64,000 nucleotides of DNA from Asterochloris sp. CNOR1 (taxonomy: Eukaryota; Chlorophyta; Trebouxiophyceae; Trebouxiales; Trebouxiaceae), in NCBI GenBank assembly GCA_963969365.1, contig OZ017747.1, positions 2,480,001 to 2,544,000 on the forward strand, written 5' to 3'. Below the pieces are notes generated by a model. The model was not told the DNA's origin, did no database searches, and worked only from the letters and a program-made list of their open reading frames with translations. Made by a program: the position numbers and the translations under genes. Shown here one piece after another: positions 3,001-62,500 of the stretch. Positions within the stretch are counted from its first letter, which is position 1. Each line of letters opens with the position of its first letter.

Positions 3001-6000
3001 TTTGCAACGCGCGCCAAGAAGATCGAGATCACTGCTCAGCGTAATGAGATCCTGGACCAGAGCTCCCTCATACGGCGCTACCAGGAGGAGATTGCTGCGC
3101 TGAGGCAGCAGCTGGAGGTAGTGGCACGGGACCCTGGGTCCTTTGGCGGCATGATGCCTTTAGAGGTGCGAGGGAGTTGTGCAGGGCAACCACATGCAAC
3201 AGGGGACCAAGCTTGAGCTGTCAGGCGGTTTGAGGCCTGTGCCGATGCAGCAGCAGGGGGCTGGTATGAGTCTCTGCATCACTCAGCGACATGATGGCGC
3301 TTGAGGCGAGGTGGTGCCGTGAATGCCACCATGAATGTAGCGTCTGCAGGAGCCCCAGAACCCCCTGCAGGGCATGGCTCTTGGCGCAGTGTCTGGCATC
3401 CTACATTCTGTGACCCCAATGGTTGAGAGGTTGCTCTGCTGCTGTCATGCTGCACCCGCAGCGCTGGGAGAGGGCATGTACTGCAGCACTGCAGCACAGC
3501 TTTGGCTGGTTCCACTTTCCACTGCAGCCTTTGCGAGATGCAAGGGCTCTGCAGCAGCTGCACACTGTTCACAACGACAACTGCTGCTGGCTGATCTCGC
3601 CAGGCTCTGGCTGCAGGTCCAGGATCTGCGGGAGCGGCTCCAGGAGGAGCACCAGGCCCTTCTGCAGCGAGACGCCCAGAAGGCTGCCCTCGAGCAGCGC
3701 ATTGCCCGCCTGACCAAGATCATCCTGCACTCCACGCGCGTGCATGCGGCCAGCGCGCTCGCCCGCCGCCAGCGCATCCGCCTGCTGCGCTCATTTTCTG
3801 CACACCCCTCCCCTGCAGTAAGCCCACTGGTTGTTGTTTGAGAGAGGGGCCCTGGCACCTGCTGGAGCTGCCTTCAGGTCTGCAGTTGGGCTGGCTTATG
3901 CTTGTTGCCTTGTTCCTGGATGCAGCTTTGTATGCTGCCAGCGCATCTGCCTGCTGCACCTGATGTCTGCACACCCTTCCATGCATTGAGCCCACTCCTT
4001 TGCTGTTTGATTGAGGCACTGCCCACAGGTGGCTGGTGGGGTCCCTTGCACCTGCTGGCTCTGCCCTCAGCCCTCAAGTGGCGCTGTCTTATGCAAGGCA
4101 TTTTCTGTCGCGCTGTAGATCTAGCAGATTGCATGCAGCCAGCACACCTGCCTGCTGCGCAACATGTCTGCACGCCCCCTCTTCAACAGTGAGCGCTGGC
4201 AGAGCTGGAGGGTAGTCAGGGTAGCTGCAGAGCTTGGTGGGTATCCTGCTTGGTGGCTTGAAGCCTGCAGAGAGAACTCAAACCTGCAATATGGTTGTGT
4301 AGTGAGCACAGCCCCATGAGGACTGGGGCAACGGTCAGCTGTGTCAGATGCAGCCACCCACGCAATGTTGGTTGTAGTGCCTGTTATCAGTGCAGCTTGT
4401 GTCTATCTTTTGCGTGCTGCCCACATGTGCAGGCCATCTGCAGGCAGCGTCTGTATGTTAGTGGCAAGGCCTGTCCTCAGGGAGTCGCCCTGTGCAAAGC
4501 ATCTCTGCCCCGCATGGGGTTGTCAGCCTGAGCCTGCACGCTGCCTCGCCTGCAGCCCTCCCAGCCTCTGAGCCCCCTGAAGCGCCCAGGGGGGGCCCCG
4601 CTGGAAGAAGGCGATGGCGGCAGGGGTAGCTCTTTTGCCAAGGCACGGCGTCTAGACCTGGACGACTCTGCGGCTAAGATTGCATCGTGGGCCCTGCAAA
4701 ATGGTGAGGGGCTCTTGCACTTGACTGTAGGCGGGTCTGCATGGCATGGGGGTGGCATGGAGGGGCCTGGGCAGTCCCAGCCAGCAGGACTGCATCGAAG
4801 GAGCTGCACATCTTGATGGACGGCCTGTCGTGATGACATGGTCTGGGCCTGGACAACTCAGCGGTCAGGGTTGCTCCAAGAGCCCTGCAGATGGCGAGGG
4901 AGACAGCTGCACACTGATACGAGGGGCAGAAGTGGCCTTCTGTGGTGTGAGGCTTTCATGATGTGTTGCTCAACAGCTGGGATGGGAAACCTCCGTGTGA
5001 GGAGCTCTGCATGTCCTACAGCAATGTCGTGTTCCAGACTTTGGTCGACCACATACATGAGCTCACAGCTGCGCTCTGTTGCTTACACCTGCATGCGGCT
5101 GCTGCAGAGGTGGCACGGAGGCATGGTGAGGAGCCCGGCACGCCGCCCAGCCAGGAGGCTGGGATCATGAGCACTGTCAGGCAGGTCAAGACCGCAGGCG
5201 AGCTCATTCCTGGCAGGCAGCTACTGCAGCAGGTGAGTCATGCTCTGTGGCACCAGAGGAGGTGTGCAGGCAGGGCTGCATCAACCGACTCTGTGGGTCT
5301 TGCTTGCAGTTGCGTTGTGTTCTGGCACCAGCCCAAGTTCAGGCACTGAGGGTCCTGCATGGCAGGAAGGCGGCTCAGCTCATCTTAACAGACTTGCATG
5401 TGCATGCTTCTGTGCAACGTTGTCCCTAACCAACTCTGTGACCGACCAGGCCTGCCCGCCTTGTTGCAGGACATGGACATGTATGCCCCCTATGACAGCG
5501 AAGCAGCCTTTTTGCGCGAGCAGGTGGAGGTGCTGGCCGAGGAGCTGGCCGAGAGGGACCGCGCCCTCGAGGCAGCGCAGGCGGCGCGCCCGTCCCCAGA
5601 GCCAGAGGGGGCCTCGGAGCGGGCAGTGTCGTCGGCGATGGGGGTGCGCTCGGCGTCCGGGGCCACTTCTGAGGAAGGGGACCGCGATGTGGAGATGCAG
5701 GTGGGGGCCTGATCTGTTGTGTCATCTTGGTGCAAGACTTGATGCTGTGAGAGAGCAGGGCTGGCATGAGCACGCAGCACTTGCGATGGCCTGCACAGCA
5801 GGAGGAGTGCAGCATTGCAGCAGCAATGCTGCTTTGTATTCATGGGAACTGGTTGCTCAGCAGGCCTTGTTAACTCTGTGCATTGCAAATTGCTGCTGGC
5901 CCAGCTAGACACTCATCCCCACTCAGCCTACTCTCAGCCCGCTCCTGCTCGGCCCGCCCCTGCTCAGCATCGTCCATTGCCTCTGTGGCCTGTCAAGGAA

Positions 6001-8580
6001 TCCCCAGCCAATGCTACTCTTGCATGTGTACTGAAAGGGGTGCAGCTGTCCACGCTTTCCATCAACAACATCGATGCAGCCAGCACAGCACTTGCCTTCA
6101 AGATGCAGCGCGCTCAGTGCGAGTTCATGTTGGCCCTGCTATGCTGGGCCTAGCACCAACTTGGGGCATCCAGGCTGCCACTTACCTACTGCATCGTTTG
6201 TCTTTTAGGTACTGTACGAGAGTTCATGTCGACCCTCCTGCGCTGGGCCCGGCTGCCAGACTACTTATCATACGCTGGCCTGCCACTCACCCACCGCACC
6301 CTTTCCCTTTCAGGTGCTGTATGCTGAGCGCGAGTTCATGTCGGCTCAACTGCGTAGCGCCCAGGCCAACTCGGCTGCCCTCATTCGCGAGGTGCAAAGT
6401 CTGAAGGCCCAGGCAGGCATGGGAGGCGGCGGCGAGGGGCATGCCGGCCCCCATGCATCACTTGCTCCTGCCCCCTTTGGCAGCGGCACTCTGGACACCC
6501 TGGTGGACGACGACATCTTTGCAGATGCCAACAGGTGAGGATGCCTGAGCTCTGCAACAGACAAGTAGGTGGGCCCGCTAGGCACCAGCATGTGCCCAGC
6601 CTCGTCTGTGGCTTTGCAGAGCGTCCGCAGGGCATGCCGTCGGAGATGCTGATAGGGATCCCACCTCCTGGCCTTGTCGCAAAGCACGCATTCCTCTCGT
6701 GTGTGCATATAACAACAGCAGGTCACTTGGTGGGCTTGCCTGGCAATACAGGGAATAGCGCAATGGTGAGGGGCACCTCTCTGACTCTGCATCCTGTCAA
6801 GCAGGGGCGCAGTTGCGCAGATGTGATCAGGTAAGGGTGCTGCCAGCAGGCTTGAGAGACACTCCGACACTGCACGCTGCTGGCGTGCATGCAAGCCTTC
6901 ATCACAAAGTTGACACAATCAAGGCTTGTCGCGGTTGTGCCCCTGCGCGGCGGCAGCAGAGCTTGAGAGCCTCTTTGGCCGCCAGAGGTGTGCCGCATCT
7001 GTCAATGGCCGTGCTGCGCAGCCGCTCTGCTGCGTGAGACCAACACTGCAGCATCGTTGTGGAGGCCCCTGCAGGCTGACCCAGCGCTGCCCCGGTCCCT
7101 GCAGGCTGGCAGCAGAGCTGGAGGACGACACAGCGGCCCCCATGGCCTCCTCGCAGAGCTCACAGACGACCGCCACGCTGCCCTCGCAGCCGGATGGCAC
7201 CTGCGAGCTGCAGCAGCAGCTGCGCAACATGGAGGGACAGGTGCAGCGGGTGCTGCAGGAGCTGCGGCGTAAAGAGGACACCCTTGCCAGGGAGCGGGCG
7301 GTTGCCATCAAATCGCAGGTGCGAAGGGGACACCTTGCTGTCCAGGTGCCTGCAGTCCCCTGCAGGAAGCTGCGGCCCCTGCTAGGCGCATCAAGCGAGC
7401 AACCAGTTTGTCTTGGCAACCAAAGTCTGCTGTGGGTGGTGCCCTGGGCTGTGGGCCTTGTGTGAAGCTTGCTGGGGAGGCCTGTAGAGGCTGCTCCATC
7501 TGTGTGGTGCCTCAGACTTTGGCCATCTGACAGGCAGCTGATCTGCAGCAAGGACCACAGTATTGCCTTGGCAGGGCCACAGGCCCCTGGTTACGGGATC
7601 TGCAGCTCTGCACCGCCAGGCCCCTGATAGCAATTCACAGTGCTAGCCTGCAGGCCCAAAAGCTTGTGCTGCTAGGCTCCAAGCTTGTAACAATCTGGCT
7701 TCCATTCACTCTACCCTGTGGCCATAGGAGGCAGAGGCAGCGGCGGCCAAGCGGCTGAAGGAAGCGGCTTTGGAGAATCAGGAACTCAGAGCTGAGTCTG
7801 CTCGCCTGCAGCATCAGAACAACCGTCTGCAGGGGTACGCTCTGGACGATGCCGGTGCTGAGCAGCTGAGCGAGCTCATTGGATCCCTGACTCAGGTGGG
7901 CTGTCAGTGCAGTTCAATTGAAATGCTGCTTTGCTGACAGCTGGTGAGCAGCTGGGCAAGGGTCATTGCTCTGCCAGAGTTTATTGCCCTGCTGACTCAG
8001 GTAGGCTCATGCTGTGGCAGTAGCTGCTGTCGCATTAGCTGCAAGCACAGCTAGGCCCTGAGCACCCGCTTCTTGAAGTGGTCTGCGGCGGCTCTGTGAC
8101 AGTGGGACAGGCTCGCTTGCCGGCTCCGAGTTGCTGGCAACCCTCAGCATCAGGAAGTTGCTTGTTCCAGGCAGTGTCAGAATTGTGAGGGAGACGCAGG
8201 TCTGCTGCAGCATGGACAGCCCTGCTGACAATGATCTGATGCTGCAGGCGGTGGAACGTGTGCGCATCACTGTGCAGCTGCGCCACCTCAGTGCAAAGAT
8301 TGGGCCTGCGCGCTCTGGATCCCAGGGCTCCATCAGCAGCGCCACAGTGTCCCCTGAGACGCACAGCGGGGCAGCCCCAGCACATAGCAGCGTGTCGCCC
8401 GCGTCCCGGCCAGATGCGAGGATGGCAGCCATGGCCTCGCTGGGCTCCAGACCCTCCAGTGCAGGCAGCAGCACAATGACCCTTGAGCGGATGCGCAGCG
8501 TCATATCAGAACTGAGCCGAGCAAATGCAGCTGGCAGCAACATCCCCAACCCACCACAGCACCACTCCCCAAGCCAATGA
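1..8580 (+). CDS. KIN7: Kinesin-7 family motor protein, 5' end outside window
   Basis: Microtubule plus-end-type motor with N-terminal motor domain. Exons: <1-141, 388-495, 735-854, 1413-1565, 1985-2135, 2507-2667, 2908-3165, 3617-3817, 4556-4703, 5108-5232, 5470-5700, 6314-6534, 7105-7318, 7728-7895, 8248-8580; all junctions keep frame and give 910 residues to a TGA. Visible motifs: P-loop GVTSSGKT (exon 2), switch I NEGSSRSH, switch II DLAGSE split across the 2135/2507 junction, and the neck-proximal [24 protein letters not shown] and [13 protein letters not shown] are typical of plant kinesin-7 proteins (family knowledge). The rest is coiled coil, a Ser/Pro-rich stretch and a short C-terminal tail. 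Only the first part of the motor is missing. Introns after 141 and 2135 begin GC. Exon 7 could instead end at 3117. The introns contain decayed copies of neighbouring exon ends (listed separately). It converges on the ZC3H15 gene. Confidence 0.93.
3769..4196 (+). repeat. Exon-end copies in kinesin intron 8
   Basis: The last ~49 bases of exon 3617-3817 plus the first ~25 of its intron (3769-3841) recur at about 3937-4010 and 4138-4196. All three copies share the order gccagc, ctgcctgctgc, tctgcac, and the second also keeps the intronic gcccact...tgtttga. Only the first copy reads in frame with the protein. Confidence 0.8.
4841..4899 (+). repeat. Decayed copy of exon 9 donor end (kinesin)
   Basis: Resembles 4651-4709, the 3' end of exon 4556-4703 with its donor: both have cctggacaactc/cctggacgactc, then gccctgca(a/g)atgg(t/c)gagg. 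The copy lies in the following intron, and its donor GT has become GC. Confidence 0.7.
6101..6262 (+). repeat. Two decayed copies of exon 12 start (kinesin)
   Basis: Copies at about 6101-6145 and 6201-6262 resemble the acceptor and start of exon 6314-6534. All three carry gagttcatgt, and the second keeps a full ttttag|gtactgta acceptor-like start. They lie in the intron just upstream of the used exon. Confidence 0.75.
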
Positions 8581-9054
8581 GCTTTCATCATTCCTGCAGT
8601 TCCCCCGCTGACAACACTTAATCTCTGCAGTAAAGCAATACTGGCCCCTGCATGCATCCTTGATCTCCGCCATCAAGCTATCCCTTGCAGAGGCGTCACT
8701 GTCCACGCTTTCAGTTGCATCGTTCAGCAACACAGGGCAGGCATGATCACTGCACCTGCAAAAGCTGCTCTTGTCTCGGACTAATTCATTATTTCTGTCA
8801 AGTGACCAGGAAGTGCCACTATAGCAGATTCCCATATGCACATGGAGCCCTTCAAGTGCTGCCATGGAGGCACTTGCATTGTGATGCAATTTGAAGAAGC
8901 CACACTACTGACAAGCTTCACTGCACGAGGAGCTGATTCAGGCGGCCTGGGACTGGCGAGGCTCGGTGAAGGCAGGTGCAGGCAGACCTCAAAAGTATGG
9001 GGCGGTGCCTATCTCTCTGCAACCTGCAGCTATGCTACACATACATTTGCTGGC
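8581..9054. other. Convergent intergenic region, kinesin / ZC3H15
   Basis: Tail-to-tail spacer of 474 bases holding the two 3' UTRs. I see no open frame, repeat or recognisable RNA gene in it. Confidence 0.6.
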
Positions 9055-15451: not shown

Positions 15452-18400
15452 ATGAGTCAGTTCACAACAGTGCTGCAAAACTTGTATCAAGTGGTCTCAT
15501 CGCCTTTCAGCACAGGCAGGAAGCGCAAAAGGACGGATCAGGATGATGCAGGCCTGAACCAGCTCAATTCCAGGCCTGCTGACAGTGCTAGTGCTGGGCC
15601 ACCAAAAGCTGATGTGCCTGCTGTGACGCATGCGCAGCAGCAACCACAGGAGCCGGCAGTCCCTCAGCAATTGGCGAATGGGCATGGCCCAGAAGCAGAC
15701 AAGAGGCCAGCCAAGCAACGTGCTGTAGAGGGCCGAGGCTGGGCGCAAGATCTCAGGCAGAAGGCAGCAGGGGCATCGAGAAACGTCCTGCAGCAACAGG
15801 CCACACCTGCACGCGGTTGGCAGCCACGCAGCACATTTTACGGCATCAGTAGCACGCGCCATGCGTCACCATCATATCTGCATCAGGTGGGCAGCATCAC
15901 ATATCCAGGCAGTGGCCACATATGATATCAGCTACGCCCGCTGCTGCTTTGGTGAGATGCGGCTCTGTGCTGTGGCGCACAATCTCATGCTGTGCTGTGC
16001 TTCAAGCTCTGTAATGCCATGCTCTGCTCGTCTCTGCTCACTCTGACATTCCTGCCCACCCTGTGCAGTCACAGATGTCATTTGCTGGCCCTGATGTGGC
16101 CACCATGGACACAGCGGCACTGGTGAGGATGCAGCAGAAGCTGGCACATGAAATTGCGAGCCGCCATCGCCTGGCCACACAGCCCAGACAGCCCGTGCTG
16201 TCCCCTGCTGAGATGCGGAGGAGGCTCAGCAAGCAGCTGAACGGCAGGCCCAGCTCTGCTTCCCCCCCCCGCGGCAGCGCCAGGCAGCCCAGGGTGGATG
16301 TTGACCTTGGGGTGAGCTGACTCATCCTGCTTGTGGGCAGCAAGGGCAGTACTATGTCACCTGCTGCTGGCGGCCTGCTCAGCTCCGGGGCCCCCTACTG
16401 CCGATGTCGATTATCACGCAGGCTGCGGCTGGGGTTCTCTGCTCAGCGGCAGTGCGAGGCAGCCCAGGGGGGCATTCAGGTCTGGGAGTGAGTGGTGGAC
16501 ATCGGCTTGAGGTGCTCTTGGGGGAGGCCTGGGAAGAAAGCATGGAGCCGGCTCTGCTGCACACTGTCGAAGCATGCCAGCTGCACCCTAGTCTGTGGCA
16601 GCTGGGCAGCCATTGAGTTGGAGGCAAGCGTGTGCAACATAAGGGGACGAGGAATCCTGTGCCACTGTCTGTCAGCTTCCTTTGGGATTGGGGACATTGA
16701 AAGCCCCCAGCTCCGAAAAGTGCAAGGTGCATGTTCCTTCATGGCCAGCTGCTCCCAATGTGGTGTGAGGTGGCCAAGGGTAGTTACTGAAATCAGGGTG
16801 AGCTGTTGCTCCCCTTTGTGGAAGTGTTTCAGCTGCCTGGAGCACATCTTTGCCTGGCCTTCGTGCTGTTCACAGAAATCATCAATTTTTGCACTGGTCT
16901 TGGAACACCTGCATATGGTCCTCAACGCAGCACCAAGACAGCGAGAGTGGTCTCTGCAGGGGCGCCAGGCATTGCAGGAGCTTGTGCGGAATGACAGGCA
17001 GGCAGGCCTGGTGAGTGAAGTGAATGCTCTCTGCAGCAGACATCCTGTGCACCAGCTCAAAGGTTTTGCGTCACCAGCCAAGCCAAGGTTGCTTACTATC
17101 AAAAGTCACGACCCATCAGCCTATGCTCCAGTTTGTGCTCTTGCATCACCAGCGACTGCAGGAGCATAGCTGGGGGTATGAAGGTCACCAGGCATTGCTC
17201 ACAACCCCTCGAGCATGTTGCAGGGAGTGCAGGCAGCTGGCCCCAGCAGCAGTCCAATGCAGGTGGGCTTCACCCCGCAGCAGATGGTTGCGGCCGCTGA
17301 CGCAGTGCATACCAGAGGGCAGGCGCTTGCGGCCCCAGCAGCAGAGGCCAGGGGATCTACAGACGGGTGCGCAACAGGCCCAGAGGTTGGAGGCAGCGCT
17401 GCTGACGTTGCGCAAGCAATGCAGGATGTGTGGGCTCCCCAGGCTGACGGCTACCAGGTCTGATGCTTGGGCAAGCACAGCATGCGCTACCCAGAGCATT
17501 GATGGTTGTGTGGGAAGCTCAGGCTTGGCGTTGCATTCAGTTACACAGAATATGAGCCAGTGCCTGACTTCTGAGCTGCCGGACTGTGTATACAATTTTG
17601 TGGCAGGTGCGGCTGCAGGCATGCATTCCTGGCAGACAGTGTCATAGTGCTCTGCTGCTGCCAAGCTGCACGCCGTTGCCCTTCAGCAGGGTGTGGATGC
17701 ATGCATACATCCCTGGCAGCCTGTGCCTCTGCAGTGTGCTGTTGGATAGCTCCTCACAGCGTGTGAAAAGAACATGTGAGCGCCTGCAGATGGCCATGAA
17801 GGCTCTGGCAGCAAGCAAGGAGCGATTGAGGACCAAGCAGGAGGAGGCTCTGCGACTGGTTGGGCGCATGTGAGCTGGGCTCTGTGGAGCACAGGGGCTC
17901 ACAGTGGCAGGCTGTGGGCATGGCTAGTGGCAACCATGCTTTGGTCTGTGGGAAAGCTGAGGCAGTGGGCCAGTCTGCAGCCTGGGCAGAGGACCCTGGT
18001 GCCTCCACTTACTGCAAATCATGCACAGCTCATGGGTATTCATAAAGGCAGTAAGGAGGTGGGCTGTGAACAGGTGTCCCTTGGTGCTTGGCCTTTGCAG
18101 TGGCCTGCGGGGATGCTGTAGGAGCCGGTGCGTCATTGCTGTGCTGTGCAAGCTCTGTGGCAGCCTGCGCTGACAGCCAGGCCAACCTGCTGGGTCCAGT
18201 CCTGCCTGCTGCAGAGCCCCCTGCATGACATGTTGACTGAATGATGATTGGGGCGCTGCCTGACTCACGGCTGCCCTACAGTTACAGCAGGCCTTATTGC
18301 GAGGCAAAGCTGCTCTCTTGCCAACAGCATCACTCCCTCATGTGCCTTCCTGAGCAATGCAAAGGTTGCCCTGCACTCCCAAGGTGTCGATGCCACCAAC

Positions 18401-21400
18401 CAGCTTGCCAACAACTCCCTCCACTGCTGCTTTACAACCCAGTAGCTGCCCTGCAGTCCCCAGCGGGCTGCCCAGCTTGGCAAGGCCACCATTCAGCTGG
18501 CCACCGACTCCCTCCAGTGGGCTGAGGAGCAGCGGCGGCGCCTGGACGAGCGGCAGCAGCAGCAGGAGCAGGCGCAGCTGAATGGGTGGGCAGAGGTGAG
18601 GCAGCTGCTGCATCAATCAGCAAACTGGCGGGGTTGATGTGCAGGCTGCCTGCTCAAGCAGGGTCGCCATCCAGAGCTGCCCGCTGGACTGCCTGCCTCA
18701 GATCACGTGCTTGGCCACAGCAGGACCAGGTCCCTGTGTCTGCCTGGTGGCATGGCAGTGCTTGCCCACGCCTGCTGATTGCGCAGTCATGGCCTGTGCC
18801 AGTGTGGCATCTTGAAAAGTGCATCGCAGGATGCAGACCTGAGGTCAGTGCTCTCTGATCAACAGGCAGACCAGTTGCATGATTATTTTCTGCATGAGGA
18901 CCTTAGTCCAGTGCTTTGTGCTGGTGTCCTCTGGACACCAGGACACCAGGGTGTGGCAGAATGATTAGGCTTGACGCACTTCGCTTTCATAGAGCTCAGA
19001 CAAACTTTGCAAGTTGCAAAACACTGAACTCAAGCCAGTATCAAATCATTTGTGCTGCAGGATGATGCACTTGACAAGCTTGATGAGGAGGAGCAGGAGC
19101 CAGACCCCAACATCTCCCCCAAGCTGCAGGAGATTGTTGACTGGTAGGCCTGCCCGCCCCATCCGGTCTAGGCGTTAACATAAAACATTTTTTATTTGTG
19201 TGTAGTTATCCTGCTCCGGGGCTGCGCTGCTGCTGTCTGTCTGATGGTGCAGCCGCTTCATCTACCACGATCTTCACCTCCTGCCCTGGGGCTGCACTAC
19301 TGCTGACCTGCCCAGTGATGCAGCCATTGCTGCCACCTCCCCCAGGCCTGAAGCTGCCATACTGCAGAGCTGCATTTTGGTGCAGCCATTCCCCGCAGGC
19401 TGCCTGCTGCTGTCTGCCTTAGAGCACAGGTGTCATTTCTTCACATGGGCTGGATTGGGGTCTCGTTTGCCAGCAGTGTGGCCTTAACCATGTTTTGGGC
19501 AGCATCGTGCGGCAACTTGCTGCGATCCCATGTTAGCGGCGAGCTGCAGTTTGTTGTGCCGCAGTAGGGTTCGTGTCCTTGTGATCGCAAAGCCCTGCTG
19601 CAATTTTTACACAACGCTGAGGAGTATGGCTGCACCATGTGTGCTGCTTGTGGACTGTTAATGCATTACTTGCAAATCTCAATGGTGCATATATACACTC
19701 TTGAGCTTCTCAAGCTGCAGGTGCTGTCTTTCCATGAGCCCGCGAGTGTTTCTGGTTTGGGCCCAGCGTCCTCAGTTCCTCTTGATGGAGGGCTGCGTGG
19801 GCTGGGCAGCACAATGGGTGCTGCTTGTATGGCGCCACAGCTTCATGAAGACATGCTGCATGTGTCCACCCCGTATCCTGCTGCAGGGCGCTGGGAGAGG
19901 AGGGCGCTGATCAGGAGGTTGTTCTTTGCGACCACAAGCTGACTAACCAAATGATCAGGCGGCGGGACATCAAGTGCATGCAGGCCTCGTCGTGGCTCAA
20001 CGACGAGGTCATCAATGTATGGATGGGGATGCTGCAGGTAGGCATGCCGCGAAGCTGCAGGCTTCTGGGTTGACGCCTTCGTTCTGCAGGGATGGGATGC
20101 TCTTGGCTGTGTGTCTCGGGGTTGCTTTTCAGGGCTGCCCAATTGTCCATGGCTGTGTGCCTGGGGATGCTCCAGGTGTGCCGCAGGTGCTGCAGCTTCT
20201 GCTTTGTGGTGAGACAATGCACTGCAGCTTCAACACATGCAGGCTGCGCAGGCATGCAGCACCACAATAAGCTGTGTGTTGCCTTATTGCAGGAAAGAAA
20301 TAAAGCCCGGCGGGAGGCAGGCATTGGCCCAGATTGCTATTTTCACAACACTTTTTTCGTCAACAAATTGTTCACGTGAGCTCACACTGGCCACTTGTGG
20401 CTAGGCTGCCTCTACATTCTCTTGTTGCTCAGTTCTGTGTCCGCTCACCTGTCTCTGGGGTTGCATTTGCATGTCAAATCTGACACATCTCTGCATCAGG
20501 CATCAGCAGCAGACGCTGTCTTCAAGCTGTGCCATCGCCACAAGCGCTGAGCTGCTGTTGCCTGCCCAGCTGCCCTCTGTCCTTAGCTGCTTTCTGAAAG
20601 CAGTGAAGCTCAGTCTCTGCTGGACCCCTGCAGCCTGACTGCCCGATCAATACCCGGCTCTCTGCACCTGTCCGTGGCATGCCCGCACTTGTCCTTGGCA
20701 AGCCTTGGGCCCCTGTTGCCCCCTGCGAAATTCCTTATTAGTACAAATGTATTTTGCGCTTAGGTGCTGCCAGCTCTATGCTGCCAGCTCTCTGGTGCCA
20801 GCTTTCTGCTGCCAGCTCCCTGCTTCCGCCCAGGGCCTCCCCGGGCTGCCTGCAACGCCCTGCACAGGTCTGGGTCGGCCGCTGCTACAGCTTGCTCACT
20901 GCATTTGCTATTGCATGTCCCCTGCACCGCTGTCACAGCGGCACTGCATGTCTGCTGTGCAGCGCCCTGCACACCGCAAACACCAGTTGGTGCAGCACCG
21001 GAAAGCCCCCACATTGCCCGGATTGCACCCAGTGACACGATGCGCCCTGAGCAACTGTGACTGCAACTTGGTGCAGCACACTACTCTCTGCAACTTGCCA
21101 CCACCTGCTGCCTGCAATTCTGACAAGACTCCAGTCTGTGTCTGCTGTGCAGTGCCCTGAACAAGTACGACTACAAGTCGGTACGGCGTTGGACAGCCCC
21201 AAAGCGCTTGAAGCGGACCTTCCCTGGCGAGTTTGACAGCATCCTGGAGCTGGACCGCATCATCATCCCTGTGCACCTGGGCATACACTGGGTGTGCGCG
21301 GTGATCAGCCTGCAGGACAGCCAGATATGGTGGTATGACAGCCTGGGGGTGAGTGGTGTCCATGCTGAGGTTGACACAGCACTCCAGGCGTGTGCACTGC

Positions 21401-26700: not shown

Positions 26701-29700
26701 CCCAGGTATGTGCGGTGCAGGAGTCTGTGTGTGACAGCCCATGTTCCTGTATGCAGTTTTGCAAGCTGGAGATGCAGTTGCTTGTGTGGCACATGCTGAT
26801 GTCTGCATAGTGTTGCAAGCTGCTGTGACAGTGCATGTCCCGGTCTGTGCAGTACCGCAAGCTGGAGATGAGGCCAGTATATGTCATGAGCCGCCGCCGG
26901 CTGCGGCGGTGCCTGGAGGAGTGGCAGGTGCAAGCTCGACTGCATGCTGCCCGCAAGCAGCGGGCTGCCCAGGCTGCCCAGATGCAGCGGCGGCATCTGC
27001 TGGAAAATAGCTTTGTCAGCTGGTGGGTGCACGTTCCTGTCCTATATCTGGACATTGCAGGCTGCTGCCCGGATGTGGCGGCAGCACCTGCTAAAGGCGG
27101 GCTTCTCCAGCTGGTGGATGGGTATTGTAGAGCTTGTCCAGGCACTGGCAGGCTAACAGGCACTGGCAGGCTCACTTGTGGGCCTTGGAGGCGGCCCCCT
27201 GGCCTTGTCACAAGTCTCATCAACTAGCACAGTAGCTCTCGCTTGCTGTGGGCAGCTTTCGCAATGCTGGGAAGCCTGCTGCCTGCCTTGTGCATGTGAC
27301 CGGCAAGTCCTGCAGTCTCAACCTCTGCACCTGGAGCTGCCGACCTGCCATCCAGTTCAGAGCGGTGTCTCAAACCTGCCTGCAGGCTGGAGGGTTCTCA
27401 GGGGCAGCACCATAGGTGTCGCAGGCAGCAGGGTCTGCACAAGAAGCTGCAGAAGGCCAAGCTGCTGCGCATCGTGGGCGCATGGACCAACCTTGTTGGC
27501 TCCAGGGCTCGCAAGCAGAAGGGTCTGCACGCTGCTGCTGCTCTGTACCAGCATCACCAGCAGGTGGGTTGAGCAACTGCACTGGCCAGAGCAGACAGCG
27601 GACTTGGACCAGCCACCAGCAGGGTGGGGTGGCGCCGTGCGCCTCATCATGGCCTGACCCCTGCATGTGTGGCGCCCAATGCAGGCACTAGAGAGATGGG
27701 CAGCAGACTGCTGACTGCGCCGCTAAGGTCTGACACAATGGACGTCCTTCCTACAGGGCAAGGCCTGGAGTCGGTGGCTGCAATTGCACGCCCGTGCGCT
27801 CCAGCGCCAAGCTGCAGAACGGGGCACCTGGCAGCGTCCGCGCCTGGCCTGCTCCTTCTATGGCTGGCTGGAGGAGGCCAAGCACCGCAGGAGGGTCAGG
27901 GCGCTGCAGCGACAGAATGTGGCCAAGCGCAGCACCAGGCAAGCCCACTGCGATCTGGCAGTTGCCCATGTGGGAGCGCCTTCCCTTGGCTGAGGCCTGC
28001 AAATGCTCAGCACTGCACAGTGCAAGCTCTGGCTGTGGCCTTCTCAGGGCAAAAGCAGGGTGCTGAATTCCTGCACAAGGCTGGTCACACCTTGCAGCTC
28101 ACCCTTGAGGAACGTGCGCCGTCAGCCCCTGGCTGGCCACAGTGCTCATTTCATGTTTGATGAGATGCAGGGCCTTAAGCTCTGGCTGGCTGTGCCCCCA
28201 CTTAGTGGCTCTCTGCAGGCTGGCAGACAAGGCTTTCTGCGTGTGGATGTACTGGCTGCCATGCCGCTGCCCAAGGGCTGGCTGTTGCAGCCTGATAAGG
28301 TTGTGCTGCCCAGCATCAGCCCTTGTGCGGCAGCCACTTTGTCCAGCAAGCTCCACAACACACTTGCCCCACAGGATGCTGCGCCTGATGGTGGGCAAGC
28401 CTGGAACCTTTCGTGTTGCCTGCTCTCAGTCTTGTGGCACATGCAGGCTGGCAGGCAAAGTCTTCTGCGCGTGGGTATGGGCAGGCCTGCAACCAACTTG
28501 ATTTACTCTCTCAAGGAGGCTTTCAATCTCCACATGCAGGCTGGCAGGTGAGGTCTTCCGAGCGTGGAAGAACGTGTTGGTGGACATGCGCCTGGACAAG
28601 GCCCACGTGGAGCAGGCGGCCCTGCAGGCCCAGCTGGCCCAGCAGCGCGCAGAGAATGAACGCCTGCGCCGCGACAATGAGCGCTTCGTGCGCCTGATCG
28701 ACAGTGGGGAGTGGGGGCGTGGGCGGGTGTCCGAGCTGATGCAGGCAGGCAAGCATGTGGGCCCCCAATTGGAATACTTTGCGGCTGCCAGGAGCTCTGC
28801 AGGGATGGGCTCTCTGGGCCAATTGGGGCCCTTTGCACACCTGCCTGCCTGCTCGCAGCTGTCTGGGCCCACAGATGCCAAGGTCCACGGCTGTCAAGGT
28901 TCCACAGCCTGGTAAGGTCTCCCTGTGGGCTTGCTGAAGCTGTCCGTGGCTAGCTGGGGCTCTTTGCAGGGTTCACAGCTGAGAAGCTTTGCGCCTGCCA
29001 GGGGTTCTGCAGCCTAGGTTGGGCTCAATCTGTCCCTGGCGGTGTTTGCTGCATGTCTGCTGGCAATGCTTCGGGCCACAGGAATGGAGCTTTGCGCTTG
29101 CCAGGGGTTTTACAGCTCAGGTGGGGCTCTCTGTATGCCTGCATGCCTGCTGGCCCCTGCAGCTGACTTTGGCCTTGGAATGCATGGCTTGCCTCCTGTG
29201 AAGGTCATTGTGAGCACCTAGCCATCTAATTCCCTGCCAGCAGATTGGTTCTAGCTGCGCTGTGCCTTGAAACCTGCTACATGCATGTTTCAGAGAGGGC
29301 GACTTTGGCAGAGTGGGTCAGGCAGCTTCTCCTCGGAACTTTGAGCCATGCTGCAGGGGAGGTGCTCAAGGGCGAGCGCGATGCGCTGCTCAAGCTGGTG
29401 CAGGCCCTGCGCAGGGAGTATGAGGCTGTGCAGCTGGCCAAGACGGGGCAGCAAGCAGAGCTGCAGAGCATCAAGGTCAGCTCATGCAGGCGTGGATTGT
29501 ACCTTCATTGACCTGCTAGCTGAGGCTGCATGGGGCGCAGCTTAGCTGGCTTTGCATGCAGGGGGTGCTGCTACTTTGTGGACTGAGGAGGTGTTGAGCA
29601 CAGCTCGGAACCAGCTGCAACGCTGTCACAATGGGTGTTGTGCATAGGCTTGACGCAGCATCTGTACCAGGATCATCCCCCAAAGGTGCTGGCTGTGTCC

Positions 29701-46470: not shown

Positions 46471-49400
46471 CTAGAATGCAGTGCTGTCAAACTGAAAGAT
46501 GGGCTGCACATACGGCAGCTCAGTATAGTCAGGGTCAAGCGCCGGCGTGAGGCAGTCGCTGCTATTGTGCAGGTGCAACAGGTCTTGTGAAGGGTTGCAC
46601 AGCCCTGGGCAGGTGGGCATGTTCCAGACAGACAGGGTGGAGGCTGTGCACCAGGGCTCACACAGCCGGCGATCATCCATGTGCTTCACATCTAATGCCA
46701 GCATCCAGCTCCCTACCGTCACGTCTGCAGATCACAGGGGGAGTCTGGTGGTGGGCAAGATCAATGGTCCTAGGATGGCTCATGTCTGGCAGAATGCGAC
46801 GGCAACAGGGCAGGGGCCAGCAGCCAAGGCGACAAGGCTACAGGCAAGCTTCACCAGCCTTGATGCAGGCTGCTGGGTTCCAGATCAGCAGGCATGGGGT
46901 GGAGTCAGCTTGCAAATGGGGGAAGCTTGCTGTTGCCCTTACTCCTGCACGATCTTTTGTCGGCATGACCCCAGCCCCAACCTTCACTGCCAAGGTATTG
47001 CAGAGGCCCTTCCGATACTGCTGCAAACTGCACGCAGCAGCCTGAAGGGGGTGCCTTGAGTAGGCCAGCTGGTGCAGCCCTGCACACCATCAGTCTGTAG
47101 CCTGCGCCTACCCCTGTGGACGCGCTTGATCAGGAGGACAACAATTGCAATTGCACACGTGCCGCCTTTCTCTGTGGCCATATAAGGATCTACGCAGACG
47201 ACACTGTCTGGACTGCTGCGGCGTTCAACACCATTGAGCAGACTGGCTGGCCCAGGGCTTTGGGTGCCATCAGCGGCTTCCATGCCCCTGCAAACGGCCG
47301 ACCCTCACCTTCCTAGGCGAGGTAGCGCATCTGCCCCTGCTTGCCTGCAGCTTGCCAGCCATGCATGCAGCAGCTTTAGGGGCCAACTTTGCTGTCTGAC
47401 TGACGCAATACCCTCACTTCGACAGACAGCCTGCCAGGGTCTGTTCATCTGCTTTCCCTGTGCAGATGCCTCTGTGCTGATGAAGGAGAGAACGTGTGGT
47501 CCAAATGACTATTCACAAGTCCACCCACCTTCATTGGCCAGGTAGCGCAGTCGCCCCTGGCGGATGCGCGCGATGTCATAGGCCACTTGCCCCGAGACGA
47601 CGTAGATGCTTCCCCAGGCGTGCGTGAAGTAGGTGCTGCTCCCCAGAACGACATGCTGGGGCTCGTACCAGCGCTGCTGCTGATTGGTCACAATGCCACC
47701 CGTCTTCATGCATCCAATGTAGTCTGCAGGCAGGCACGCTTCACAACTAGCGCAGGACGCAAACAATGATCGATGCCAGAGTTCAATCTGTGGTCATGTT
47801 GGCGCGTGATGTCAGCGAGGGGGAAGGTGGGCATCGCTGCAGCATCTCCAGGAAGCAGCAGCAGCAACAGCAAGGTGTCTGACCGCTACAGGGCCTGTAT
47901 GTGATACATTCGAGCAGGGCAGTTTGGCGGTGGTCATGCATGCATGCGGGCAGGCCTGCTTGCACCATTGCTTCTCGGCCAGCACAAGGGCAGCCAAGAC
48001 CTACTAGTCCTGGAGATATCAACAAAAGACGCACTCAATAGCGCAGGCTGGCTGCTCCAGGGGGTGTCTTGCCATGCACAGGCCCATGCCTGGTGCTGGC
48101 ACATGCCTGCACATCAGATCCCAAAGCAGGAATGCCAATCAGAGCAGCAAAGCAGCTGGTCAAGATGTGAGCCAACCTGCGCCGCGCATGCGCCACTGTT
48201 TGATGGCCAGCGGAAGGCGGTCCAGTCGCAAGTAGACATCGTCGTCTGCCTTTACGATGTACTCGGCATCAAACAGGGTGGTGGCCATGCGCAGGAAGGA
48301 CAGGGTCTTGTTGGTCAGGCTCATGTAGGCTTCCTGCAGTGGGGACAGGGGCTTGTTGATCAGGCTAATGTGGGCGTCCCGCAAGAGGGACGGCATCGTG
48401 CTGGTCAGCCGAGACCAGGCCTCCTGCAAGAGAGGACGTGGGTCGATAGGTCAGCCGCATGTAAGCGTCGCGCAGGAAGGACAGTGCCTTGTGGGTCAGC
48501 CTCATGTGGGGCCCTCACAAGATGGCACACAGGATCTTGTTGGTCGGCCTCATGCGGGCCTCCTGCCCGGGGAGGGCACAGGTCTGCGGGGGAGCCTCAG
48601 GGGGGCCCTCCTGCAGGGGGCATGCAGGGTGCCGGCCTCCCCTTCACTGGGGTGCTGGGACAGGCAGTGGTGTGCCACCAGGCAGCCTGCATTGGGGTGA
48701 CATCATCACCAGGGGCCAGGGCATGCAGGGGAGTGCACCCTGCTGGGCTGCAGCACGCACCCTGCAGGAGGGATTGGGCCAGTCCAAGCCCTGGGCACCT
48801 GTCACAGGCAGAGCTCTTACAGCCAGGCGCTTGCTGCGAGGAAGCATGGTGCGGATGCCCGCCTCAAGTGCCTCTGCGTTTCTGGCAGCGGGGGCCAGCT
48901 TTGCACGACGCACTACGTTGCTATGTTGCAGGTGTCCAGCTGCAGTGGTGTCTTGGACCCGAATCTGCGCACAAAGCCCCACCTGGACAGGCAAGGACTG
49001 GAGATGCCACCCTCAGTCACCTCCTGCTGCAGGGCCTGCTCCTGCTGAGGGGTGGGGCACTGACATGCACAGTCACCTTGCAGGCGCCTCCCTGCAGGGA
49101 AGCATGGACACCCAGTGGGCACACAAAGCCTCACCTGGACGGAATGGCAGGAGGGCATTGTGCTCAGCCTTGGCCTGTTGCAGAATCCTCCTTCACCCAG
49201 GGGTGGAGGAGCACAGCCATGATCTGCCGGCTTGCAGGCTTATCACTGCAGCAATGCCTCAACACCAACAAGGCCTCACCTGAACCGGCAGACGCAGGAA
49301 GGCACCATGGTCAGCCATCTCGTGCTGCAGGGCCTGCTCCTGCTGAGCGGTCGGGGGGTTGCCGATGACAAAACGCACAAGCATGTTGGTGTCCTCCTCC

Positions 49401-50865: not shown

Positions 50866-51443
50866 TTAGGTGCTGAAACATCAACACCGCCGTGCCTGGG
50901 CCTGCATCAGACGGCAGCATCAGTGTAGGTCCTCAGGGGCTGGCAGCAGCCAAAGCCTGAAGTGCTCGCACCAGCAGATCAAATGCAGTATGCATTGGCA
51001 TGCTCCAGGCACAGGTGGATCGTTCTCGCAGCCAAGTGTCTCTGCTTCGATGAAGGGCTATGACAATCATGCAGCTGATCTGTGTGCCTGGCATCAGCCA
51101 ACCATTGTCAGCTCAAAGCCTCTCTCCCATGATGTTGAAGTGTTGACTTGACTTCAGGTCATCCTGACTACATATGCTCAAATTCTTGGCTTAGCCTGGA
51201 ACGACAGGACTGCTGCGAAGATTGCCTAGCATTTAGGCATCAAGCAGCCGGTTATTTTAAAGCCAGGTGAAGAGCGGCCTTGCACACACTCACGAAACTG
51301 AGCACAGTCAGAAAGCATAATCCTCATCACATCTATGATTGCCAACACCTGTCTCACACAGATGCAGAGCAAGCAATATGCGTATATGATATGCATGAGC
51401 ATTATGTAGCCAACACCTGGTGGTACCTTTGTGTCCAAGGCTG
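50866..51443. other. Divergent intergenic region, GT31 / MDR
   Basis: About 580 bases between the GT31 start and the duplicated start region of the MDR gene; it must contain both promoters. No specific motif is recognised. Confidence 0.5.
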
Positions 51444-51583
51444 ATGCTCAGCTGATTGCGCAGTGCGGGAAAGCATGACCAAGCAAAAAGCACTGTTGAT
51501 ACCGATCTTCGATGCTCAGCTGCTTTCACAATGCAGGAAGTCATGACCAAGCAAAAAGCACTGTTGATACCAACCTTTGATGG
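51444..51583 (+). repeat. 68-base tandem duplication of the MDR start region, creating a uORF
   Basis: Units start at 51444 and 51512 (atgctcagctg...), each ending with catgaccaagcaaaaagcactgttgatacc. The first unit's ATG (51475) opens a 23-codon frame starting MTKQKALLIP whose TGA (51544-51546) overlaps the main-frame ATG at 51543 as ATGA. Confidence 0.85.
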
Positions 51584-54500: not shown

Positions 54501-54696
54501 CTCCAGGCGGTGCCTGGCTGCTGTGGAGCTGCATGGCTATTCAAACATGCGCCGTCACCTGCAGGTCATGCAGCTTATCGTGGATGGGACCATCAAACTG
54601 GAGCCCTGCAAGCGATTCCCCTTGGAGCAGTGGCAGCAGGCAGTGGAGTACTCCCAGAAGCCAGGCCGTGGCGGCAAGGCCATGCTGGAGGGCTGA
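51531..54696 (+). CDS. MDR-superfamily NAD(P)H oxidoreductase (quinone / enoyl reductase-like)
   Basis: Medium-chain reductase without the zinc cysteines. Exons: 51531-51690, 51854-51922, 52152-52207, 52288-52404, 52636-52711, 53104-53171, 53255-53298, 53623-53687, 53904-54025, 54192-54299, 54565-54696; 338 residues, in phase. GroES-like N-terminus: VLVHVTLRPVNPTDVYEM, PLVNGSEG, FKKGQRVV, GTWQQYVNVPEE, VPDSVSDEAAAQ. Rossmann half: NPVTAVGM, nucleotide-binding GANGSLGKMLI (~160-170), KGVDAALDGVGGEFA, GGRLVPYGALGG, and the C-terminal KRFPLEQWQQAVEYSQ...GKAMLEG. The NPTD and GSEG motifs resemble mitochondrial enoyl-CoA reductase (MECR) and quinone reductase; the substrate cannot be fixed. The start is 51531 or the in-frame ATG at 51543, which is identical to a duplicated upstream copy. 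Confidence 0.92.
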
Positions 54697-54927: not shown

Positions 54928-56154
54928 TTATCTGTTCTGTTCAGCTCGCAGTGCAGCAACATAGCTCTTAATGTTGTCCATGTGAGGGTGGACCTCCAGG
55001 CACTGCTCAAAGCACTTCAGAGCACTGCTGCGGTCCTGAAGGTGGAGGTAGCACAACCCCATGCCGGACAGTGCCAGGCAGTGCTGCGGCTCCAGGTTCA
55101 GCACCATCTTGCAGTCCTCGATGCTCTCTTTGGGGCGCTGCAGCAGGTACAAAACCTGCAGATGAGAGATGCTGTTGTGGGAGCCCTCTGCCCCTGTTAC
55201 TGACTGCAAAGTTTGCCCAGACAGGCCTTGGTGCTAGCCCCCATCACCTTGAAGCTGCAGCCGCATGTCAGAGTTTGCGAAGCCAGCGAGGCTCACAGAT
55301 GTCGTGCAAGGGTTTAGTGCAGCAGCACATTGTTCAGCATTCCTAGACAAGCTTGCAGTGGCGTCTTGCCCCCACAATGGCCTTTTACTTCATGTTGATA
55401 GGCGGCCAGTTGCAAGGGGCCACAAGCAAGCAGCACTCACAATGGCCTTCTGTCTCCATTCCACCAGAGAAACAGGGCTGCAGCTGCAAACAGTGTCAAA
55501 ATTCAGGATCACCAAGACGAGCAGCCAATCTTGGGATCATAACACATAACCCACAGTGGCCTTTTTGTTCCATCCCTCAGCAAAGGAGGGCTGCAGCTGC
55601 ACCAGGCGGTCAAAGACGTCCAGAGCGCCCTCCAGATGCCCTGCCTCCATCAGACTCGTCCCGCCACGCAGCATGTCCCTCACAAAGGGGTCTGAGTGGC
55701 TCTGCCAGATGAGCATAATTGCTGTCAGTGCAGCATCGGCCAAGTGGGCCTGCCTCAGATACACATAGAGCTCCGGCAGGGCATGCCTGCTGCCAGTGTC
55801 TCCTGCAGACGACAGCTGTAAGACTGTCATGCTCTCTGCAGATCAAGTATCAACAAAGCTCCAGTTGCGCTGCCAGGCCAACTGCGCGAGGTAGAAGCTA
55901 CATGCATGCAGGGCTCTACAACACAAGGCTGCGCGCAGAGCTTTCACACGTCGGGGGTGATTCCCTGTGGCGTTCAGCAGGGTCCCACCTAATGCAGAGA
56001 TGACCTCAGTCTGCTTCTGTGTGCTGCTGGCTGCCTGCAGCTCCTGCAGCTGTGCCACAACATACTGCGCTACTGGGGGCAAGTGTTTCCTCAAGGCAGC
56101 AGCCTCATCTCTGAGGCGAGCTGCCTGCTGAAAGTCTTCCTGGGACACTGCTAC
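54928..56154 (-). CDS. UVR-motif and tetratricopeptide-repeat protein, 5' exon(s) unresolved
   Basis: Three minus-strand exons are secure: 56154-55989, 55802-55555, 55155-54928, in phase to a TAA. The first carries a UVR motif (VSQEDFQQAARLRDEAAALR), a helical hairpin found in UvrB/C, ClpC and plastid UVR proteins where it mediates protein contacts. The rest is TPR-like: GGTSLMEAGHLEGALDVF, FAEGWNKKATVLYLL, CKMVLNLEPQHCLALSG, MGLCYLHLQDRSSALKCFE, CLEVHPH. WNKKATVLYLL...ALSGMG closely follows a bacterial-type TPR family, so a plastid or mitochondrial location is plausible (inference). No ATG lies in frame before the first secure exon; the frame is closed by a TGA just upstream. The true start is therefore in one or more exons between about 56160 and 56470, where an ATG at about 56463 opens a basic leader-like frame. 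UVR plus TPR is known in plant plastid proteins, but I cannot name the orthologue. Confidence 0.8.
55361..55494 (-). repeat. Two decayed copies of UVR-TPR exon 3' end
   Basis: Units at about 55361-55420 and 55431-55494 resemble 55543-55604, the donor end of exon 55802-55555. All have (c/t)cacaatggcctt or ccacagtggcctt and a gcagctgca / gttgcaa end. They lie in the downstream intron. Confidence 0.8.
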
Positions 56155-59500: not shown

Positions 59501-62500
59501 CCGCCTGTCATGTTGCAGCACTGCAGAATGACAGGGCCCTACAGGTGTCAGCCATGCAGCAATGCATGAATGTGCTCGTGTGCAGCACTGCAGCCCACCT
59601 GGCAGACCGAAGCACTGTTAGTGCAGTAGTCTGACTGAGCAGCCAGCTCCAACCATGCACAAATGCAGGCCATCTGGCCAGCCAGTCCACAAGTCCAGAT
59701 CCCCAGTCCACTTCAGCAGCCAGCCAGTTAACCCTCTCCGCTGTCAGCTGTTCAACCCTCCTGGATGCTGCCTGCATTCCAGAAGCCCTTAAGTGCTGTG
59801 CCTGCCCCAGCAGGTGGTCACATGTGGGCAAGCAAGGCACCCTTTCATGCAGCTGTGAGAGTTGAATCCCCCATGACTGTCCCTGCCGCTGCAGGTTGCT
59901 ATGTGGGCAAACAGGGCCACTGTCACGCTGCTGCACACCTGGACATCCTCTGGCTGCCCCTTGCTGGCTGCCCCTTGCTGGGACCGTGCATCGGCATGTG
60001 CAAGCTTGCTGACCAGCCATCCCTACATGCTGGTTGTGCACGAGGTCTGCCTCAAGTACCCACAAACTTGCATATGCAAGCAAACGCTGTATAGCCACCC
60101 CCAACCTAGCAGCTGTGCACCTACCTCTCAATCCCCCGTCTGAAGTCCCTGCAGGTGGGCCGTGTGCCCGACCACAAGCTGTCCCATGTGCTGCCTGTGC
60201 ACCTCTTGACAGCCCACGGCTGACCCTGCAGGTGCGCTATGTGGGCGAGCGCGAGCTGCCTGACCGGCTGTCCATGGAGCACCTGAAGACAGAGGAGCGT
60301 GTTGTGGAAGAGACCCACACAGCGCCCTGCTCCCCTTTCAATTGCGGCGACTGTGCGGGCGGGCAGCAGGCGTACGCCGCCAACACTGTGGGGCCGCGCA
60401 AGGCCAACTTTGCGCCGCCAGCCAGGTGGGCAGGCGTGGTGTTTGTGGTGGGTGATGCCTGGGGGTGTCCCTGTTTCAGACTTACTCTCTGAGCGGAGGG
60501 ACGCTTCGAGTAAGAGCTATGCACTGCTTCTGACTCGTAGACCACACTAGCTTTGCACCATAAGCCAGCTGGGTGCATGACTTCTACAAGGGGCTGCATG
60601 TGGGGCCTTGGCAGGCTGGCTCGCACTACAGTGTGCAAACAAATGCCCCGCACTGCCTTGCATGCACTGGGCAGCTCGCCATTGCCAGGTGGGTGAATGT
60701 GCCCAGCTGACAAGTGCAATTGGGGGGTAGCCTGTCCTTTCAAACACTGGGAGGATGAACAATATAGGCCTGAGGTGGCTCTTGTGCCACCAGTCAGGTG
60801 AGGACATGGATTCCCAGCAGACAGGTAGGGTCTCAATTGCATTTTCAAGCCTGCAGCTGCCTTCCCAGCCTCACCATAAAGGCGGTGCCTGGGCACTTTC
60901 GAGCCATCCATGGCCACCGTTCGTCCTGCAACGGCAGAGTGTGTGCATGCAGACAATGTGTGGGTGCTCTTCCTGCACTGAGTGTGCTGTTGGGAGGGCA
61001 CCACCCGCCAAGGCAGGTGCAGGCCTGTGCATCATGACGTGGCTCCCATGACCGGCCTGTGGCCGGACACCATCCCTGTTGAAAGGCATATCCTAAGTGC
61101 CCACGGGTGCCTGCTGCAGGCCTGGCAGCGCCTACACAGGGCTGGGGGCTAGTCGCACGGCCAAGCCGATGGGTGCTGACCTGGGCAACTGGAGCACGAC
61201 CTACTCCAACTCATATGAGGTGCGCTAGTTGCCAGACCGCTGCAGCCTGCCCCTTCTTGGGCTCAAGGCTCTTGTAAAGCTCTGGCTGGTTTTGAGCTGC
61301 ACCTGCACCTGCACTGCTATGCCTCGCTGCTCAAGGTTGATAGTGCATCGCCATCTTGCCAGGCTTGCTGGTGATTTGCAGCCAGTGCTGGCTGGCAGAG
61401 GCCTGCTGCCCAGGCCTGCTTCAGATAGACTGGCTTTCATTGTCCCAGCAGCGCGTCTGTGCCCCTGCACCCACATGTGCTGCTGCACCAGGGCTGTCGT
61501 AGCTAGCTCCTTGCCTGCCTGGCACTTCACCACTAACCCACCCCATGACCCCCAGCTTGTCCCCCTATGGCTCCCCTGTGTGGCTGTGGTGCAGGACCCC
61601 CAGGTGGGCACTCTGGCCCGCAGCAGGTACGGCGGCCCTGGCGCCAGGCCCGTGGTGGGAGCATACAAGCAGCAGGTGGCAGCCCCCCAGGCAGCCTACG
61701 GGTCCACCTACGCTCCCCGCAGCTACAACGCCACTGCCGGCTACAATGCTGGCAGCCAGAACTTCACCATCAAGGCGGTGAGCACGCCCTGCAAACGCTG
61801 CCTGCACAGCAAGCCCTGCCTGCTGCCTTCACCTCTTGGAATGGCTGCCCTGATGAGCACCCAACAGCTGACTTGCTGGGCCCTCTGCATCTGATGTGCT
61901 GTGCTGCCTGCATCAAGTAGGCAGTGGCCAGCATGGCCGCTCTGCCGGCCGTGCGTCTGTCGAATAGCAGCCGCTGTCCCTGGCAAGCTTGCACTCGCTG
62001 TGAATGGCCTGCATCACGCCAACGCCCTGCGCCGCAATGCAATCTATGCGCTGGTGAAACTTCCATGCTGCTGGTTGGGGCTGAAGCTCTTAGCATCGCA
62101 TGTTTCAAGTTCAGCACATGCTGACGCAGGCCGCTCAGGGCACCCCAGGCGACTTTGTGAACCCCCATGGCCCAAGCGACCTGGTCTGCAATAGGGAGTT
62201 CTTCACCATGACAGAGGACAGACCGCTGGTCAAGGAGGTGTGGCTTGCTTCACACACATGTGCTCGTTCCCCTGGGGCTGCATGCAGCCTTGCGCTGGGC
62301 GCCACAGTTGCGTCTCTCCCTCCACCTGCCTCACCCTCTGCAAGGCCTCCACTTGCTCGTCTGTCAGCCACATGTTTGCATAATGCCGGGGCTCCTCATG
62401 GCCAACCACCTGCTGACTTTCCATGGTGACCGTCCTCTGCTTCTCTGGGCAAGGGGTCCCTCAGCTGCCTGCACTGCAACTTCCAACACCTTCCCTCAAA

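Follow-up and report, generated by a model that had tools for sequence, protein, structure and literature searches.

Tandem duplication is described as a true source of new introns (PMC3443670), and some described cases resemble the one reported here. In the potato RdRp gene a tandem duplication lies across an intron-exon boundary (PMC4974935), and in Drosophila exon sequence has been duplicated locally and one copy intronised (PMC2891723). Introners, a genome-wide source of intron sequence, are known from green algae (PMC9860276). The present work concerns the introns in a 64-kb stretch of the genome of the green alga Asterochloris sp. CNOR1 (C2:2480001-2544000, the whole of which is called the window), the genome comprising 56,383,464 bases in 21 contigs. 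A minority of introns, both within the window and elsewhere, hold detectable copies of the ends of their own flanking exons. It is likely that these copies stem from undirected local tandem duplication, which is tolerated across splice junctions since one intact junction remains.

The potato gene presents the same situation as here, in that the duplication crosses the acceptor and the inherited splice signals settle what becomes intron (PMC4974935). It deals, however, with one recent case in which an extra intron was made, whereas here many old cases enlarge existing introns in one genome. In the Drosophila cases the unit lies inside an exon with AGGT and yields a new intron (PMC2891723), whereas the units described here lie across a junction already present. 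Introners are dispersed families, and no dispersed family was found here in 314 kb. Among the literature matches listed there was no genome-wide account of junction-spanning copies, most subscription journals lying outside the search. Direct same-strand copies at short distance have reportedly been described genome-wide, as 'doublets' by Thomas et al. in 2004 and as 'close direct repeats' by Achaz et al., with the mechanism said to be unknown. They are said to be mostly exact or near-exact and untied to splice junctions; compared with them, the copies described here have diverged and are concentrated at distances of 60-180 bp.

Local copies on the same strand

The sample comprised 314 kb (0.56% of the genome) in six blocks, namely the window and 250 kb made up of positions 1,000,001-1,050,000 of each of the contigs C1, C3, C4, C5 and C6. 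The test of exon ends against their own introns and the first distance profile covered 264 kb (without C6), and the edge-spanning counts and later analyses covered all 314 kb. Exons were taken from a self-training gene finder written for the analysis, which learned its splice motifs from the sequence (donor AG/GTGAG and acceptor CTGCAG/G, the slash marking the junction). Model sets 1.5 and 1.8 were used in the 264-kb analyses and set 1.8 was used on all six blocks in the 314-kb analyses. The genes are fragmented in these models, and the spare copies of junctions, here called decoys, can be taken for exons. The recognisable predicted proteins include a kinesin, a CCCH zinc finger protein, ULP1-like, TOM20-like and aminopeptidase-like proteins, a GT31 protein and an oxidoreductase; the names come from reading the sequence, except that of GT31, whose homologues carry PF01762. 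The acceptor consensus is a strict CTGCAG/G, and the word CTGCAG has a density of 5.2 per kb in introns and 3.1 per kb in exons (314 kb). An Rfam search of the window gave zero matches.

Copies are concentrated at short distances. In the 264 kb, same-strand copies are about a hundred times more frequent at distances of 60-180 bp than at 6-7 kb (0.9 vs 0.008 events per offset), and in the 314 kb there are 266 events at 20-999 bp vs 12 in 980 far offsets. Ungapped matches in the window with a score of at least 18 occur at 0.16 per offset at 20-200 bp and 0.09 at 200-300 bp, dropping to 0.015 at 300-500 bp and to between 0 and 0.003 beyond. Exact runs of at least 17 bases number 0.23 per offset at 20-60 bp, 0.18 at 60-120 bp, 0.05 at 120-180 bp and 0.00 past 400 bp. 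The copies lie predominantly on the same strand, as the 314 kb contain 186 direct pairs at 20-219 bp and 10 inverted pairs at 20-220 bp, vs 4 far ones. Inverted or hairpin templated copying was considered and rejected on these counts. Dispersed repeats are nearly nil, with 1 distant pair vs 20 pairs within 1 kb at E 1e-5 (blastn, 314 kb, low-complexity filter on).

That the copies are peculiar to introns, as the preliminary description had supposed, was not borne out. Copy midpoints in the 314 kb number 1.38 per kb in introns, 1.25 per kb in intergenic sequence, a class that surely includes some missed intron, and 2.03 per kb in exons. The ratio of transitions to transversions is 0.80 in non-exon pairs and 1.04 in exon-nonexon pairs, vs 0.42 in chance matches; hypermutation of repeats of the type of repeat-induced point mutation was rejected, transitions being only 0.80-1.04 per transversion. 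In non-exon pairs, similarity continues past the matched core at p<=0.05 on the left in 15 of 69 and on the right in 8 of 69, where 3.5 are expected. A head-to-tail unit can be followed over its full length in the 45-bp array of the GT31 gene, the 78-bp array of a WD40 gene and the 68-bp array at 51443, and most events retain a core only (median ratio of span to period 0.27, n=195).

For the ends of exons, the 60 exon bases flanking each intron were aligned with that intron, and exon ends of other genes served as the comparison. With set 1.8, a match to the exon's own intron at p<=0.05 was obtained for 29 of the 221 exon ends upstream of an intron and 24 of the 221 downstream of one (11 expected for each), and at p<=0.01 for 16 and 11 of 221 (about 2 expected). 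The similarity of introns to their own exon ends thus exceeds that to unrelated ones, and the earlier claim that introns hold copies of their own exon ends was partly borne out, both here and at the seven loci it had named, each of which holds an internal local copy scoring above every shuffle. With set 1.5 the counts are 21 of 178 upstream and 19 of 173 downstream at p<=0.05, and 12 and 7 at p<=0.01. When the window is excluded (set 1.8), 22 of 166 and 17 of 171 exon ends match at p<=0.05, and 12 and 6 at p<=0.01. Exon parts lying 91-150 bp from the junction gave no excess at p<=0.05 (2/108 and 4/112 with set 1.8, 1/94 and 2/92 with set 1.5). An intron-internal control, in which bases 21-80 were compared with the rest, gave 9/93 and 6/75 at p<=0.05, a rate near that of the exon ends; both this control and the one on far exon parts with set 1.5 had too few comparisons for p<=0.01 and give counts at p<=0.05 only. 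The median p for exon ends is 0.55-0.56, so most introns are without a detectable copy, and those with one are a minority and not the rule. The preliminary description spoke of a genome-wide habit; exon-end copies do occur in the 50-kb blocks of the other contigs as well, but the densities given above lend no support to a habit peculiar to introns or to junctions.

Copies that span a splice junction

The 314 kb contain 228 events below 400 bp, of which 112 are non-exon, 86 exon-nonexon and 30 exon-exon. Among the 86 exon-nonexon events the exonic copy lies inside the exon in 44 and crosses an exon edge in 42, with an existing junction within. These edges are 26 acceptors, one of which (48401) is a GT31 decoy mis-called as an exon start, 13 donors and 3 start edges. 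The decoys lie upstream in 24 of 26 acceptors and downstream in all 13 donors. The reading frame separates the classes. Periods of exon-exon events leave residues 0, 1 and 2 on division by three in 24, 5 and 1 cases, and those of exon-nonexon events in 26, 30 and 30. Since the exon-exon periods hold frame (24/30) and the exon-nonexon periods do not (26/86), the spare copy is untranslated. This contrast is independent of the similarity of the copies. It had been stated that exons hold one in-phase copy only, which does not agree with the 24 of 30 exon-exon events that lie within a single exon, nor with the 24 of 30 periods divisible by three. Of the window's 24 gene models (600 bp added on each side), 16 have at least one exon-nonexon pair; as the gene models are fragmented, the earlier figure of nine genes in fourteen is plausible.

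The best case of a junction-spanning duplication is the intron of the GT31 gene, 946 bp on the minus strand (48334..49279). Its donor, CAG/GTGAGG, is at 49280/49279 and its acceptor, CTGCAG/GAAGCC, at 48334/48333. Seven homologues align through the junction without insertion, for example as RLPLQ/EGY in P0003 (query joined by hand), and the junctions are therefore fixed at these positions. The best named homologue is that of Chlorella variabilis, at 59%. Upstream of the acceptor, about five decayed copies of the exon start form a 45-bp array (48289..48618, minus strand) with offsets of 45, 91, 136, 181 and 229; Tandem Repeats Finder reports 48290-48391 with a period of 45. At the other end of the intron the end of the upstream exon, donor included, recurs in two decayed copies at offsets of about 152 and 298 (48926..49355, minus strand). 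The copy at offset 298 scores 34.0, and blastn aligns 48971-49057 with 49268-49355 at 76.7%. Sister GT31 open reading frames (ORFs) that read through the intron hold the decoys in diverged form, and their 53-residue exon peptide differs at 1 residue in P0015 and 2 in P0016.

A second array lies in a SPAG16-like WD40 gene on the minus strand of another contig (C5:1025998-~1026330), where a 78-bp unit that takes in the acceptor and the start of the exon is present in four copies, including the working one; the fourth was read by eye and from the protein match. The relative P0035 aligns across this array with exactly one 26-residue (78-bp) unit fewer, a difference that may be a gain here or a loss in the relative. 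P0036, with 99% identity over its 114 residues, starts inside the 78-bp unit and carries its last nine residues. The claim that duplications span junctions, with one junction staying in use and the rest becoming intron, is thus upheld by the GT31 intron, the frame test and the WD40 array. That the process recurs is only partly supported: copy number differs in one relative, but near-identical copies are almost absent.

Decoys in relatives were sought with a peptide test on 15 WD40 and 15 GT31 ORFs with enough upstream sequence. It misses known decoys (p of 0.11 for P0035, 0.19 for P0015 and 0.14 for P0016), so that its negatives mean little. Four ORFs reached p<=0.05, namely P0041, P0042, P0052 and P0012. 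P0041, an ORF of another alga, has a decoy of its own, CCRSHVDSVND before CCRGHVDSVNE, 54 residues apart (shuffle p 0.002). The matches in P0042 and P0052 are read as a preceding true WD repeat and that in P0012 rests on five residues.

Nine loci of the window, the seven of the preliminary description with slightly widened limits and two more in the kinesin gene, were scored for internal copies, and all exceed 100 of 100 dinucleotide shuffles. The scores are 29.6 for the kinesin locus at 3700-4200, 22.6 for ULP1, 26.0 for the Sfi1-like gene, 35.4 and 34.0 for GT31, and 20.4 (4640-4910) and 22.2 (6040-6380) for the additional kinesin loci. When 60 random genomic stretches of the same size were scored, seven of the loci were reached by 0 to 3 of the 60, the UVR-TPR locus by 8 and the C2-like locus by 13, and the copies at the last two are weak.

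In the kinesin gene (plus strand), the end of exon 3617-3817 with its donor (~3818) is followed by two decayed downstream copies at offsets of about 170-193 and 370 (3765..4178); the exon end at 3817 is from model set 1.8. High-scoring segment pairs join 3846-3901 with the sequence at +193 (29.6) and 3765-3808 with that at +370 (22.0), and blastn aligns 3765-3976 with 3934-4177 at 66.8% over 247 columns (E 2e-11). Further along the gene, part of exon 4556-4703 has a copy at +191 in the next intron (4650..4889, plus strand, score 20.4). Three related stretches at offsets of 105 and 211 (6077..6345, plus strand, scores 22.2 and 20.6) are non-exon by model class, and the last of them reaches an exon that was read by eye as starting near 6315 (6338 in the model). 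At the ULP1 locus (18378..18519, plus strand, score 22.6) a copy lies 93 bp upstream of a stretch within exon model 18457-18595. The Sfi1-like gene has an acceptor and the start of an exon at 28540, of which decoys lie at -93 and at -321 (28214..28573, plus strand, scores 26.0 and 17.0), and its stretch 28214-28246 has a further match at +228 (score 22.0). The weak copies are at an offset of 113 in the UVR-TPR locus (55460..55601, no strand assigned, score 15.8) and at an offset of 77 in the C2-like locus (60147..60258, no strand assigned, score 17.4). Both sides of the C2-like pair and of the strongest kinesin pair are non-exon by model, and their link to an exon end is a reading of the sequence.

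Outside the exon models, a 68-bp tandem duplication with 86% identity (51443..51582, Tandem Repeats Finder, score 50.0) is the top-scoring array of the window. It lies just upstream of the oxidoreductase gene model at 51606-54696 and is a product of the same duplication process with no junction involved. In the C3 block, a long diverged tandem array of ~82-bp units extends over 36033-36617 (69% over 445 columns, blastn).

Undirected duplication as the probable origin, and its rivals

The same-strand copies, the periods of 60-180 bp and the scarcity of dispersed copies speak for local tandem duplication during replication or repair. The duplicating step would be replication slippage, flap ligation or unequal exchange, which are indistinguishable here. 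In the proposed scheme duplication would be undirected, with periods mostly of 60-180 bp on the same strand, and would strike within and between genes. Where a unit lies across an acceptor, the downstream copy would keep the exon intact and the upstream copy would become intron; where it lies across a donor, the upstream copy would stay in use and the downstream copy would become intron. Either event would add one unit to the intron and leave the protein untouched, so it would be nearly neutral and would survive. Units inside exons would persist chiefly when their length is a multiple of three. The unused copy would then decay freely with the used copy under selection, so that exon-intron pairs would be recognisable for longer and would come to resemble a junction habit.

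There are 42 edge-spanning pairs vs 18.6 expected (standard deviation 4.0; reached in 0 of 1000 random placements), a 2.3-fold excess, and in the 264 kb the earlier exon sets gave 32 vs 16.9 and 35 vs 20.5. The excess needs no directed step, because a conserved exon copy changes little and two free copies both change. A decay simulation, which was run on real sequences with hand-set rates and demonstrates sufficiency and not proof, yielded 0.30-0.33 spanning pairs per non-exon pair with uniform ages and 1.15-1.68 with old ages; the observed value is 42/112 or 0.375. With the constraint switched off the simulated value is 0.10 (K 0.3-0.9 only).

Several results weigh against undirected duplication with unequal decay. 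The edge excess is 27 vs 13.2 at identities below 0.78 and 9 vs 3.3 at 0.78-0.85, but it is also present at identities of at least 0.85, with 6 vs 2.1 expected (a number that 1% of placements reached), a class in which unequal decay ought to have its smallest effect; this class is small, and at least three of its listed identities are self-alignments of short periods. Young copies are scarce, whereas steady duplication predicts many. Among 150 events with a core of at least 30 bp and periods of 36-399 (314 kb), none exceeds 95% identity and 3 exceed 90%. Uniform ages in the simulation put at least a quarter of the non-exon pairs at 90%, and 15 of 101 were observed there without the length filter. 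In-exon pairs (44) amount to 0.393 per non-exon pair, vs 0.18-0.19 simulated with uniform ages and at least 2.0 with old ages. The splice motif is where the match ends in 20 of the 26 acceptors and in 10 of the 13 donors, vs simulated fractions of 0.31-0.66 and 0.17-0.43, and the AG letters of decoy acceptors are kept in 47 of 52, vs 0.78-0.87. A bias of the gene models to strong motifs could cause both of these last excesses. The periods of non-exon pairs are also uneven when divided by three (43, 44 and 25 in the 314 kb), for no known reason. It may be that the duplication rate was higher in the past. A past burst followed by decay would fit the scarcity of young copies and, loosely, the other misfits, but not the edge excess at the top identities.

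A process directed at junctions, or one with breakpoints at CTGCAG, that copies exon ends and their splice signal into the adjacent intron would account for the number of spanning pairs, including those of the highest identity, and for the matches that end at the splice motif more often than simulated. We regard it as rather unlikely, as unequal decay alone can yield an edge excess. CTGCA or TGCAG is shared in register by 32 of 112 non-exon pairs and has no preference for their ends, lying on the left in 10, on the right in 10 and in the middle in 12; breakpoints at CTGCAG were rejected on these counts. Similarity also runs past the core into the intron flank in 5 of 27 acceptors (and 3 of 20 donors, p<=0.05), and the density of copies between genes is close to that in introns. 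A further idea is an intron ratchet in this algal lineage, in which each spanning duplication would leave the working junction intact and push the old one into the intron, and the stacked spare junctions would be retained more than by chance as decoys that are still used, or still bound by the spliceosome. Of the 4 junctions for which two copies were scored, 3 have the nearer copy as the closer match to the working junction, and the five-copy GT31 array is out of order; the ratchet is judged unlikely. Selection might also have kept spare junctions for use as alternative or poison splice sites, for which the retained AG letters of the decoy acceptors could speak. The acceptor events, however, number 26 only, with the bias of the gene models as a possible source of the excess, and the GT letters of decoy donors (21 of 26) show no excess over the simulated 0.77-0.88. 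The exon-nonexon periods show no preference for multiples of three, and decoys diverge in relatives where the exon hardly does at all. Maintenance by selection is accordingly considered quite improbable.

Introners, which are mobile introns, or some other family of dispersed repeats would have left similar sequence far apart, and it is very hard to reconcile such an origin with the single dispersed pair vs 20 near pairs in the 314 kb or with the match excess in the window, which is at background beyond ~500 bp. Shared composition together with the CTGCAG splice word, frequent as that word is in introns, has practically no chance of being the whole explanation. It was refuted by the far-distance control, and the dependence on distance, the comparison of own with other exons, the transition excess and the shuffles all stand against it.

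Fossil junctions and the growth of introns

Tandem duplication is a known route to single new introns, and here the lengthening of introns by duplication becomes countable and datable in one genome. The fossil junctions that it leaves are found in a minority of introns, with 13% of upstream and 11% of downstream exon ends reaching p<=0.05 vs 5% by chance. They call for caution, as conserved exon copies can make ordinary duplication seem directed at junctions, and they mislead gene finders, as with the one GT31 decoy called an exon here. They also form a natural test set for the choice of the spliceosome among near-identical sites.

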